Origin: Pirellulales bacterium
GTDB lineage: Bacteria > Planctomycetota > Planctomycetia > Pirellulales > Thermoguttaceae
Direction of reading: 5' to 3'
NCBI GenBank assembly: GCA_013360685.1
Contig: JABWBD010000008.1
Span: 1 to 47,523 of the forward strand
Length of the DNA stretch: 47,523 nt
Below, one piece after another: positions 23,287 to 27,190 of the stretch; positions within the stretch are counted from its first letter, which is position 1, and each line of letters opens with the position of its first letter. The position numbers were made by a program, and so were the translations under genes. A model generated the notes under the pieces. The model had not been told where the DNA came from, ran no database searches, and saw nothing but the letters and a program-made list of their open reading frames with translations.

Positions 23287-25764
23287 TTAATGTTCCGCAA
23301 ACACCGGCGCACCCAGTTCCTTGCGAAACCGCGGCACGCCGACAAGGCCGCCATCGTCCGATTCGCCGCGAGCATCGCGGTAGCCACGCTGGATCGAGGC
23401 ATCGATCAGGTTGTCGGCGAAGTCAAGCACGCAGAGGTGCGGCGCCTCGGGCGTCAGCGTGAAGACCATCACTTGCTGCTTCGAGCGCACGTCGGCCAAT
23501 TGCGTCTGCTTGTGGAGATGGGACAGCGCGGCGAGCACATTCTGGGCGAAATGGCGGTGGCGCGGCCGCTGGTCCGGCGTGGCCTCCAGGAGCACGATGT
23601 GCGTCGCCCCCCAGAGCACCGCCGCCTCGATGGGACTATTGTGGGCAAACCCGCCGTCCACGAGCTGCACCTCGCGCCCGGCGGCCGGGAAGTCGCGGAG
23701 CGTCCGGGAGGGAAACACCGGAAAGATCGACGAGGAACCCAGCACGACATCGAACAGCAGACGCGAATCGCCGGCGAGCGGCACTCCGCGCTGGCCGTAT
23801 TGTGGTTCTTCCGCCGCGTGTCCACCCGACCCGTGCGCGTAGAAATAGAGGTCGCTCGGCAGGCTCTCGGGCCGCTGTTGGAGACAATTGCCGGTGATCA
23901 CCAGGTCGCGCCGCAACTGGCGACGGTCGAGAATCTGCCTTCCCAGAAACTCGAGTCGCTCCGAGTCGCTTGCTGCGCCGCCCAAGCCCAGCGGCGATTG
24001 CCCGCTTCGCTCCAGGCGACGGTCGACCAGCGCAGGGAACTCCTTGGCCAGGGCATGCTCCATTCCGCCGCCTCCGGAGAGCGTCTCCTGGAAGAAGAGC
24101 ACTGTAACCAGTTGCACCGTCGGCAAGCCCACCAGAAGCACGGTGAGACACCAGAACGTCTGCCTTCGCGGCAGCGTGAGCGCGCGACGGCGGCGCGAGA
24201 GATGCCACTGCAGCGCGAGCCCTGCCAGGCCGGCAAGCGTCAAGCACCAGGCAACGGTCCAGGAGCCGAACGTATACCACAGCCAGGCATGGTGCACGCC
24301 GTGGTTCCCGCCAAGCAGGCTCCAGGGGCGGACCTCCACAAGACCCAAGAGCGCCATGACCAGCCCCAGGGCCGCCAAAAGCGAGGAGGCCGTCCAGGCC
24401 CGCCGGTCGGGCCGGGCAATCGTCCGCCGCACGATCCCCAGCACCACCCCGGCCTGGACGATCGCGAACCACAAGCCGATATTGAAACGGACCACGGCCG
24501 CCGGCCGCACGATCTCGCGCTGGTCGAGCGATTTCCATGCCCGCTGGAAGTCGCGGCGGCCCTCGGCCTCCGCGGTAATTCCCAGCGCGACGGGCACGGC
24601 ATTGATCGCCCCGCCCGAGGTGCCGACGACCAGGGCGATATCCAGCCCGTCCTCGGGCGAGTTCTCACGGAGTTCGCCGAGCATTTCCTCCAGCGCCGCC
24701 AGTGCCCCAACCTGGTAGGAGCATTTCGCTCCGCCGCCCGTCAGGACGACCGCCAGGCGCGGCGGATCGGGCTGGCTGCGGGCGCTGTGTAGCAGGATCT
24801 GGCCGATTTCATCGAGTGTGACCCGCTGGGCCTCCGCGCTTGCTTGGAGATTGCCACAGGCCTCGCGCCACCGCCGCACCTTGTCGTACGCCGCGGGGAC
24901 ATTCTCCTCCACCTGGAACTGCAATGCGCCATCGGGATCGCGGTAGCTCAGCAGCAGCGATTGCAGCACGGAAACCTCGGCGAAGCCTCGCCGGGCAATG
25001 ACGACGTTCTGAGGCAATTCCAGGGCATCGAGTTGCGGGAAGTTCAACGGCCGCAGCCGGTCGGCCAGTTCGGGCGCCTCGTGCAAGGCATCGTCCCAGA
25101 CGAATGCCACGCGCCGGCGAGCCTCGCTCCCCTGGGCGGCCAGACGCAAGGAACTGCTGTGCGAATGCGTGAAGACCATGTGCTCGCGCCGCGGCTCGAT
25201 CCCCAACGCCCGCAGCGCGAACGCCGGCGCCACGTAGCCGGATAGCGACAGGGGATGCACGAACAGGAATTCTACCTCTCCGAGCTCGGCCTTCTGCTTC
25301 AAGTCGTCGGCCGTCTTCAGCGAGGAGGCCCGGTCCACCACGCACACGCAGCGATAGCGGTAGTGATATCCCGCGGCGCGCCGCTCCGGGGAAGCCCAGA
25401 CGGAAACGGCCGGCGGAAGTCCCACGGTGGCGAGGTACTCAAAGCCGGCTGCTTGGTCCTCCGGCCCGGGCGATGTGAGACTTTCGGAGAAAACGCCCGG
25501 CGTGAGGACGGCCATGTCGATCATCTCGCGCCGGAGCCAGTGCAACACGTCGCCGTAGGTTCCCACCGCCAGCCGAAAGTGAAGGGGCGGTTCGTGCTGA
25601 CGGCCGATCGCCGCGAAGGCGCGTTGCCACTGCCGATACTCGGCATCGAAGTCCTCATAAGCGACCAGACCGACGCGGATCTCCTGGGGTGCGTCCGGCG
25701 GGGCTTCGGCCTGATCGGCAAGTGCCAGGAGAATCGCTGCTAGGTACACGAGGTTCCAGGACAT
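23287..25764 (-). CDS. PhnD-like binding domain fused to patatin-like phospholipase
   Basis: This is an 825-residue protein from ATG 25764 (a GTG at 25773 is possible). A signal peptide (LVYLAAILLALADQAEA) is followed by a domain at ~30-300 resembling PhnD/phosphate-type periplasmic binding proteins (GTYGDVLHWLRREMIDMAVL; VFVHP-like FVHPLSLSGYVAPAFALRAL). From ~340 a patatin domain begins: the oxyanion loop TGGGAKCSYQVGALAALEE, the nucleophile VGTSGGAINAVP, and later VDGGFAHNSPIEAAV with the catalytic aspartate. Between nucleophile and aspartate are about four hydrophobic segments (~430-560), so the patatin half appears split by membrane helices. Patatins hydrolyse phospholipids or acyl chains. 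The combination suggests a membrane-bound enzyme whose activity is tied to a bound ligand; this is inference. Confidence 0.82.
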   Translation of the reverse strand: MSWNLVYLAAILLALADQAEAPPDAPQEIRVGLVAYEDFDAEYRQWQRAFAAIGRQHEPPLHFRLAVGTYGDVLHWLRREMIDMAVLTPGVFSESLTSPGPEDQAAGFEYLATVGLPPAVSVWASPERRAAGYHYRYRCVCVVDRASSLKTADDLKQKAELGEVEFLFVHPLSLSGYVAPAFALRALGIEPRREHMVFTHSHSSSLRLAAQGSEARRRVAFVWDDALHEAPELADRLRPLNFPQLDALELPQNVVIARRGFAEVSVLQSLLLSYRDPDGALQFQVEENVPAAYDKVRRWREACGNLQASAEAQRVTLDEIGQILLHSARSQPDPPRLAVVLTGGGAKCSYQVGALAALEEMLGELRENSPEDGLDIALVVGTSGGAINAVPVALGITAEAEGRRDFQRAWKSLDQREIVRPAAVVRFNIGLWFAIVQAGVVLGIVRRTIARPDRRAWTASSLLAALGLVMALLGLVEVRPWSLLGGNHGVHHAWLWYTFGSWTVAWCLTLAGLAGLALQWHLSRRRRALTLPRRQTFWCLTVLLVGLPTVQLVTVLFFQETLSGGGGMEHALAKEFPALVDRRLERSGQSPLGLGGAASDSERLEFLGRQILDRRQLRRDLVITGNCLQQRPESLPSDLYFYAHGSGGHAAEEPQYGQRGVPLAGDSRLLFDVVLGSSSIFPVFPSRTLRDFPAAGREVQLVDGGFAHNSPIEAAVLWGATHIVLLEATPDQRPRHRHFAQNVLAALSHLHKQTQLADVRSKQQVMVFTLTPEAPHLCVLDFADNLIDASIQRGYRDARGESDDGGLVGVPRFRKELGAPVFAEH

Positions 25765-25769
25765 TGGTC

Positions 25770-26063
25770 TCACATCCAGCGGCCGGGCTGCTTTAGCATC
25801 GATCGAGAAATGACTGTCCGAAGTCGCGGCTGTCGTTGGCGATAGTCCGAGGAGATTCGGCCTCTAAATTCTGCCATGTCCTTCCGAAAGGTCTCCATCT
25901 TCGCCGAGGCGCGTTCATGCCCCGTGCCGATTTGGCCGATCTTGATCCGCTCTGGGGGCTTATCGGCCGCGGCTGCCGGCGATTGGAGCCACCGCCCGGC
26001 GAGGATGGCCGCACCCGCGCCGGCGGCGGTCGTCAGCAAATGACGGCGATCCAAGGTGTTCAT
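25770..26063 (-). pseudogene. Truncated Gfo/Idh/MocA oxidoreductase, N-terminal remnant
   Basis: The frame starts at ATG 26063 with NTLDRRHLLTTAAGAGAAI, a twin-arginine-like signal, followed by RIKIGQIGTGHERASAKMET, the beginning of a Rossmann fold. After about 70 residues similarity ends (FRGRISSDYRQRQ reads as random) and the frame stops at 25770, overlapping the start of the patatin gene. Full members have about 350-450 residues, so three quarters of the gene are missing. Confidence 0.7.
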
Positions 26064-26127
26064 GGCATACTCCCGTGGTGGTGACAATTCGAAGTTTCCG
26101 TCGGCTGATTCGATCTCCGGTTCGGCT

Positions 26128-26209
26128 ATCCGTGCCCCGGCCTTGCTATCCGTGGTATCCGAACCATTGGAAGGCAGGGTAGCACGGATGGCAAGGCCGG
26201 GGCACGGAT
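26128..26209. repeat. 27-bp inverted repeat (26 of 27 matching)
   Basis: 26128-26154 starts ATCCGTGCCCCGGCCTTGC and is the reverse complement of 26183-26209, with one mismatch. The arms are separated by 28 bases. Each arm itself begins and ends with ATCCGTG. There is no gene inside. It lies between two truncated oxidoreductase genes. Confidence 0.85.
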
Positions 26210-26272
26210 GAAGAAGAGGACAAATACTTCGCCGGGATCAAGGAGATCTCTGTTTCTACACGCGTGCCTGTT

Positions 26273-26316
26273 GCCTTTCGCTCCGCGAAAGTCGCGTCTT
26301 TCGCGGAGCGAAAGGC
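26273..26316. repeat. Perfect 19-bp palindrome repeat
   Basis: GCCTTTCGCTCCGCGAAAG (26273-26291) pairs perfectly with CTTTCGCGGAGCGAAAGGC (26298-26316) across a 6-base loop (TCGCGT). I recall 'TTTCGCTCCGCGAAAG' as a widespread planctomycete intergenic repeat. It sits 22 bases from the truncated end of the next gene. Confidence 0.9.
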
Positions 26317-26338
26317 GACAAGGATTGATCGGCCATTG

Positions 26339-26959
26339 CTACACCACCTCCTCGACCACCCATGGCTGGCGATATTCTCGCGTAAAGATCCGGCCCAGCT
26401 TTCCCTCTTCGAGGTAGCGCTTGGCAGCCATATTGTATGGGGCACTGCGGTTCTGCGTGCCGATTTGAACGACTCGCTTGTACTTTCGAGCGGCCGCCAC
26501 GGCCTGGCGGCCTTCCCAGCAATTGTGGCTCTGCGGTTTCTCGCAGTAGACGTCCTTGCCGGCACGGCAGCAGAGAATCGTCGCCAAGGCGTGCCAGTGC
26601 GGCGGGGTGGCGATCACCGCGGCGTCGATCGAAGCGTCGTCAAGCATCTCGCGGAAGTCCTGGACGCACTTCGGACGTTTGCCTCCTTGGCGCGAGGCGT
26701 ACTCGTTCGCTCGCGGTTCGTGCAACCGGTGGTCCACCTCGCAAATAGCGCCGATTTCGCAATCGCCGCGATCGAGAAACCCCATGGCCAGTGACTGCCC
26801 CCGGTTGCCGCCGACGCCGATCATCGCCAGCACGAGCCGGTCGTTGGCGGGAGTCGCGCGGGCCGAACGGGGGTTGACTAGAATGGTGACACCGCCGGCC
26901 AATCCGAGAGTCGCCTTTCGAGCATTGTCGAGGAATCGGCGCCGGTTGATTTCGGACAT
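26339..26959 (-). pseudogene. Truncated Tat-exported Gfo/Idh/MocA oxidoreductase
   Basis: From ATG 26959 the protein starts SEINRRRFLDNARKATLGLA, a twin-arginine signal. The NAD(P)-binding segment LVLAMIGVGGNRGQSLAMG follows, then DAAVIATPPHWHALATILC and the family's GKDVYCEKPQSHNCWEGR. The frame ends at 26339 after REYRQPWVVEEVV, about 206 residues, whereas full proteins have 400-450. The catalytic C-terminal domain is missing. The Rossmann half is undamaged, so truncation may be recent; the end lies beside two palindromic repeats (26128-26316). It may still be transcribed, but an active enzyme is unlikely. Confidence 0.8.
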
Positions 26960-27190
26960 GGAATCAGGGCCTTTGGACAACAGTGCTTGGTGCTTCAGGT
27001 TCGCCTCCCAGCTTATGTTGTCCGTTGCCGGTGCGCCAATGCAAGAAATCGTGACAAGTCCTTACACGAAAGGCGCAGTGGCACTGAGAAGCTGTTCAAG
27101 AGGGGGGTACCTTGCATCCGGGTGCGCGGTCTCCCCGAATTTCTGTCGTGTGGAGGGATTTCGAAAGTCACTCGCGATGCGAGACTCTCC

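Follow-up and report, generated by a model that had tools for sequence, protein, structure and literature searches.

The window (the whole 47,523-nucleotide stretch of DNA analysed here) carries a minus-strand gene in which a periplasmic-type binding domain and a patatin-family hydrolase are joined in one reading frame; an alternative in-frame GTG at 25773 would add three residues, giving a protein of 828 (ORF analysis, minus strand). In Pfam, Phosphonate-bd (PF12974) matches residues 32–275 at 53.7 bits against a curated cut-off of 27, and Patatin (PF01734) matches in two stretches, residues 339–451 and a C-terminal piece, at 66.2 bits against a cut-off of 27.7, confirming the preliminary description, which had taken the first ~300 residues for a PhnD-like binding protein and the remainder for a patatin and had proposed a search with these two families. 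The three motifs that it named are all present and follow one another in order (GGGAKC at 343–348, GTSGG with Ser383, and DGG with Asp703), and the catalytic domain is split between nucleophile and aspartate, as it had also held: Ser383 and Asp703 are 320 residues apart, with four hydrophobic segments between them detected by hydropathy. Ordinary patatins inspected in the same phylum have a Ser–Asp distance of about 168 and lack a membrane bundle between the two. The layout is as follows.

23287..25764, minus strand: whole gene of the binding-protein/patatin fusion, 825 residues from the ATG at 25764 (open reading frame and translation; homologues of the same build)
25702..25764, minus strand: probable Sec signal peptide (MSWNLVYLAAILLALADQAEA), residues 1–21 (hydrophobic N-terminus with an AxA-like end, read by eye)
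24859..25683, minus strand: PhnD/ArrX-type periplasmic binding domain, residues ~28–302 (PF12974, profile and fold matches)
24529..24759, minus strand: patatin N-half with oxyanion motif GGGAKC and nucleophile Ser383 (codon 24618–24616), residues 336–412 (PF01734 339–451; motif residues invariant or nearly so; pLDDT mostly 91–98)
24421..24498, minus strand: membrane helix 1, residues 423–448 (hydropathy and AlphaFold2 helix)
24340..24411, minus strand: membrane helix 2, residues 452–475 (hydropathy and AlphaFold2); the loop between helices 1 and 2 is Arg-rich
24277..24327, minus strand: conserved loop PWxxLGxNHxxHHxWLW at the outer end of TM2/TM3, residues 480–496 (Gly485 invariant; N-H-x-x-H-H in most members)
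24193..24303, minus strand: membrane helix 3, residues 488–524 (hydropathy and AlphaFold2)
24091..24168, minus strand: membrane helix 4, residues 533–558 (hydropathy and AlphaFold2); the loop between helices 3 and 4 is strongly basic
23290..24090, minus strand: patatin C-half with DGGFAHN and catalytic Asp703 (codon 23658–23656), residues 559–825 (second PF01734 stretch; DGGF.HN invariant)

To survey the architecture, as the preliminary description had suggested, 84,980 species genomes were scanned with a four-sequence alignment as the query, yielding 27 loci, with more copies coming from whole-genome searches; a scan of genome contigs with a single sequence had returned no relatives. The aligned set comprises 23 members including the window protein (three of them, L045, L056 and L058, are cut by a contig end), all of which match both PF12974 (at E ≤ 0.01) and PF01734, and the 22 further homologues, whether full-length or cut at a contig end, share the layout of the window protein. 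Most members belong to Pirellulales and other Planctomycetota, and others to Verrucomicrobiota, Acidobacteriota, Myxococcota (‘Deltaproteobacteria’) and unassigned bacteria. The recurrence of the same build across several bacterial phyla signifies that the fusion is a real protein family. A joining of two genes by a frameshift, a chimeric assembly or a chance reading frame might be suspected from the window being one of the 563 contigs in a fragmented draft and from a truncated oxidoreductase frame abutting the start of the gene, but the same single intact frame is found in at least 20 independent assemblies, the homologues carry the membrane helices in intact frames, and the joined model folds confidently in AlphaFold2, so that an artefact is scarcely conceivable.

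Within Pirellulales the occurrence of the fusion is patchy (8 of 397 genomes sampled). Divergence is correlated among the binding domain, the patatin halves and the membrane part (Mantel r ~0.89, reached by none of 5000 permutations), from which these parts appear to evolve as one unit, as expected of one stable fusion. As the base of the family tree is poorly resolved and its deep branches are long, no conclusion is drawn on the direction of any transfer. Several related loci depart from the standard form. An acidobacterial copy (L059:469-3181) appears broken: its binding domain is in one frame and its catalytic half in another, and it lacks the GGGAKC stretch. In the genome of the window itself, a fragment of ~50 residues from the C-terminal part of the same patatin (HNSPIEA..LWGATHIVLLE; L037, G000:C521:6041-6181), the rest of which is absent, is the remnant of a decayed second copy. 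Two gammaproteobacterial proteins (L063:762-3857 and L064:1675-4728) are membrane-interrupted patatins with an exported N-terminal part that falls below Pfam detection, and for which profile comparison suggests a remote binding-type domain (hhalign probability 78%).

The structure of the full-length protein was predicted with AlphaFold2 to a pLDDT of 90.5 and a pTM of 0.90 using 34 aligned sequences (four sequences only gave a pLDDT of 44.9), and the model shows four long helices between the nucleophile elbow and the remaining patatin core; confidence is lower in the loop around Asp703 (residues 701–710, pLDDT 68). The architecture, its conservation and a confident structure model are thus established. 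The N-terminal domain has a binding-protein fold, matching ArrX, PhnD, PtxB, AioX and GpxB in Foldseek (E down to 8.7e-11, TM by target 0.65–0.78 for most), and for the catalytic part the match is to CapE (E 1.2e-7, TM by target 0.55–0.57 across the insertion). With this N-terminal fold, and with membrane helices that homologues carry in unbroken frames, neither of the two outcomes that the preliminary description had named as refuting it has come about. Sequence profile searches agree, with matches to ArrX (1.9e-10), CapE (5.9e-13) and PlpD (2.6e-8) and, for the N-domain, also to PhnD1, PhnD, AioX and PtxB. Among the 50 Foldseek matches listed, no solved structure covers both domains (TM by query ≤ 0.26).

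Transmembrane segments were assigned by scripted hydropathy and the signal peptide was judged by eye; the N-termini of the homologues are also hydrophobic. Most members have basic loops between helices 1 and 2 and between helices 3 and 4 (reaching +5 and +7, respectively, in the four-helix forms), and the loop between helices 2 and 3 is near neutral. From the signal-peptide-like N-termini and the positive-inside rule, we infer an N-out topology in which the binding domain, both patatin halves and the loop between helices 2 and 3 would lie outside the cytoplasmic membrane. Assembly of the catalytic domain on one side of the membrane requires an even number of helices, and four helices fit. The conserved PWxxLGxNHxxHHxWLW loop suggests that the bundle contributes something beyond anchoring, perhaps by binding a lipid or a metal close to the active site.

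The pocket of the binding domain was compared with those of its solved relatives, in which four elements hold the oxyanion: a Tyr where helix 2 begins, an STS loop, a His and an Asp (PMC10284923; PMC5700983). The corresponding positions in the window protein are listed below.

25555..25557, minus strand: pocket Tyr70, present in 22 of 23 members; equivalent to PhnD1 Y44 by alignment (PMC10284923)
25354..25356, minus strand: hinge/pocket Tyr137, invariant; aligns with the hinge Tyr of PhnD/PtxB
25240..25248, minus strand: Ser173-x-Ser175, counterpart of the STS phosph(on)ate-binding loop; Ser173 invariant, Ser175 in 20 of 23 members and Ala in 3 of 23
25159..25161, minus strand: pocket His202 (SH motif), present in 22 of 23 members; equivalent to PhnD1 H156 and PtxB H160
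25006..25008, minus strand: Asn253, hydrogen-bond acceptor position (Asp205 in PhnD); Asp, Asn or Glu in all 23 members, the next residue not being the capping Tyr

The mean conservation of Y70, Y137, S173, S175 and H202 is 4.1 bits, compared with 2.25 bits domain-wide, a value unmatched by 20,000 random sets, and the pocket is therefore probably in use. The binding domain could instead have lost its ligand and serve only as a scaffold or for recruitment, leaving a constitutive outer-leaflet lipase: the Thr of STS is not kept, and one member (L060) has Glu at position 70 and Gln at 202. We nevertheless regard such a loss as improbable, since the pocket residues rank with the best-conserved positions of a domain that otherwise drifts.

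The ligands of the fold and profile neighbours of the binding domain are phosphate, phosphite, phosphonates, arsenate or glycerol phosphate. Since position 174 (the Thr of STS) is variable across members and three of them have Ala in place of Ser175, the fusion may bind something other than a phosph(on)ate. The capping Tyr that is present in PhnD1 and PtxB (PMC10284923; PMC5700983) is absent, its position being occupied mostly by small or aliphatic residues and by Phe in one member. As cap loss accompanies larger ligands in PhnD and GpxB (PMC12718374), the composition of the pocket makes an organophosphate or phosphonate a little more likely as the ligand than phosphate or phosphite.

The genomic surroundings were inspected for hints of function. 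Next to the fusion gene in the window lie an NAD-epimerase-like gene and fragments of oxidoreductases; these fragments are truncated, frame-disrupted ORFs of the GFO/IDH/MocA type at 25770-26087 and 26146-26980 (both minus strand), the first of which abuts and overlaps the start of the fusion gene. No family-wide conserved neighbour hinting at phosphate or lipid metabolism was found, nor was any transporter gene (PhnCE-type ABC) among the immediate neighbours tested. The sole recurring neighbour is a gene for an Lnb_N-domain membrane protein, immediately upstream of and coupled to the fusion gene in all seven loci of one marine Pirellulaceae clade.

L047:6925-7983, with equivalents in L048, L050-L052, L054 and L055: Lnb_N-domain gene, directly upstream of the fusion gene

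The draft genome of the window (77% complete) yielded no Patatin protein over the cut-off and no strong PF12974 protein other than the fusion.

Taken together, we give about an even chance to the protein being an extracytoplasmic, membrane-anchored lipid acyl hydrolase that is regulated by a phosphorus-type oxyanion or an organophosphate, a single-chain sensor-effector of the envelope. Ligand control of the lipase, which the preliminary description had suggested, is the best reading of the conserved pocket residues and of the two domains being predicted on the same side of the membrane. In the mechanism proposed, the exported N-terminal domain would bind a phosphorus-type oxyanion or a small organophosphate or phosphonate through its PhnD-type pocket, and a short helical linker would join it to the patatin serine hydrolase. 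Both patatin halves would be held on the outer side, stapled to the bilayer by the four-helix bundle inserted in the catalytic domain, which would keep the Ser383–Asp703 active site at the outer leaflet for cleavage of acyl esters in the lipids of the membrane. As it opens and closes, the binding domain may then alter activity, which would tie the turnover of lipids to the supply of phosphorus or to a headgroup. The identity of the ligand, the lipid substrate and the sign of the control are conjecture at this point.

Use of a PF12974 domain as a sensor is indicated by other fusions: two planctomycete Ser/Thr protein kinases (L012:1-1899 and L013:1-1998) contain a membrane segment and end in a PhnD-type binding domain, and TtrS carries a PF12974 domain on a histidine kinase (PMC5408782). 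These sensor roles speak against a rival reading in which the binding domain is a capture device rather than a switch, holding a headgroup or product (e.g., glycerophosphate or phosphate) beside the lipase and so presenting the substrate or retaining phosphorus for uptake. Capture would be consistent with the absence of the capping Tyr, which excludes bulky ligands, with the binding of glycerol phosphates by the fold neighbour GpxB (PMC12718374), and with picocyanobacterial PhnD1, for which headgroup recycling together with a neighbouring phospholipase has been proposed (PMC10284923). The immediate neighbours tested include no transporter gene, however, and the incomplete genome holds no second strong PF12974 protein, leaving capture a doubtful explanation.

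A more novel form of ligand control, a one-protein switch shared by several phyla in which an outward-facing PhnD-type sensor of a phosphorus compound acts as the direct gate of a patatin that is embedded in the membrane and faces the same side, is a tentative proposal that we think rather unlikely to hold in full. If it did, phospholipid breakdown would be coupled to phosphorus supply without transcription or a second messenger, and the compound sensed might be the glycerophosphate headgroup released from lipids.

CapE/CapV-type effectors of bacterial defence are activated by cytosolic cyclic nucleotides. A role of the fusion as an effector phospholipase of the CBASS (CapE/CapV) or DS2 kind was considered, as among solved structures CapE (9iom/9ion) comes closest to the catalytic part, and weak matches were obtained to PADLOC phospholipase effectors as well as to the DS2_1 and CBASS_lipase models. 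The scores lie far below the curated cut-offs (DS2_1, NF053870, 37.6 bits against 400; CBASS_lipase, 21.3 bits against 200), and none of the seven flanking proteins matches PADLOC, with no cyclic-nucleotide synthase or defence gene adjacent among them; on these grounds the link to defence was rejected. Moreover, the fusion protein is predicted to lie outside the cytoplasm, unlike effectors of the CBASS type that are activated in the cytosol, and no relatives of the fusion were found in plasmid, phage and viral contig collections, making a defence role very improbable.

In bacteria, the control of phospholipases usually acts through their expression, their secretion or messengers in the cytosol. 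A lipase that faces outward, is stapled to the membrane and contains its own binding-protein sensor would, if true, constitute a direct switch from ligand to lipid turnover, and with domain borders and catalytic and pocket residues identified, and divergent natural variants at hand, the idea is readily testable. No description of the fusion was found in the literature covered, from which subscription journals were mostly absent, and the family is apparently undescribed. Each part belongs to a known family; what is new is the fusion to a sensor and the predicted outward topology. The statement in the preliminary description that the combination was not a known one thus stands for the fusion but not for the membrane-interrupted patatin by itself, because patatin-like proteins that are interrupted in this way and have no binding domain also occur in planctomycetes.

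Among known systems, ArrX, PhnD, PtxB, AioX and GpxB have in common with the fusion their fold, the Tyr, Ser-x-Ser, His and Asp/Asn pocket positions and, as predicted for the fusion, export, but they are stand-alone partners of transporters or two-component systems, whereas the domain of the fusion is covalently joined to a hydrolase; relative to PhnD1 and PtxB, the fusion also lacks the capping Tyr, and the middle Thr of STS varies in its family. In TtrS and other PF12974 sensor kinases, L012 and L013 included, a PhnD-like domain likewise serves as an extracytoplasmic sensor on an effector, but the output is a kinase across the membrane and not, as predicted for the fusion, a lipase on the same side. 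PlpD and CapE/CapV share the GGGx[KR], GxSxG and DGG/A motifs and the patatin fold, without the intradomain membrane bundle and without a binding domain, and among the ordinary patatins of the phylum that were inspected, the close sequence relatives have no convincing membrane helices between Ser and Asp. Two planctomycete patatin/cPLA2-like proteins (L136:1764-4481 and L138:2162-5656) do have many membrane helices between the nucleophile and Asp motifs, as in the fusion, but belong to a different sequence family (SGGGIRSATF, TVSGGGYIG, LSDGGH) with no binding domain and no obvious signal peptide, and are an independent membrane interruption of a patatin-like domain. The fusion shows that a membrane bundle can interrupt a patatin domain, and this unrelated branch has the same arrangement. 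Finally, in the lytic transglycosylase MltF a binding-protein-like domain is fused to an envelope enzyme and allosteric control has been proposed, although MltF acts on peptidoglycan and both its catalytic domain and its binding-protein family are unrelated to those of the fusion.
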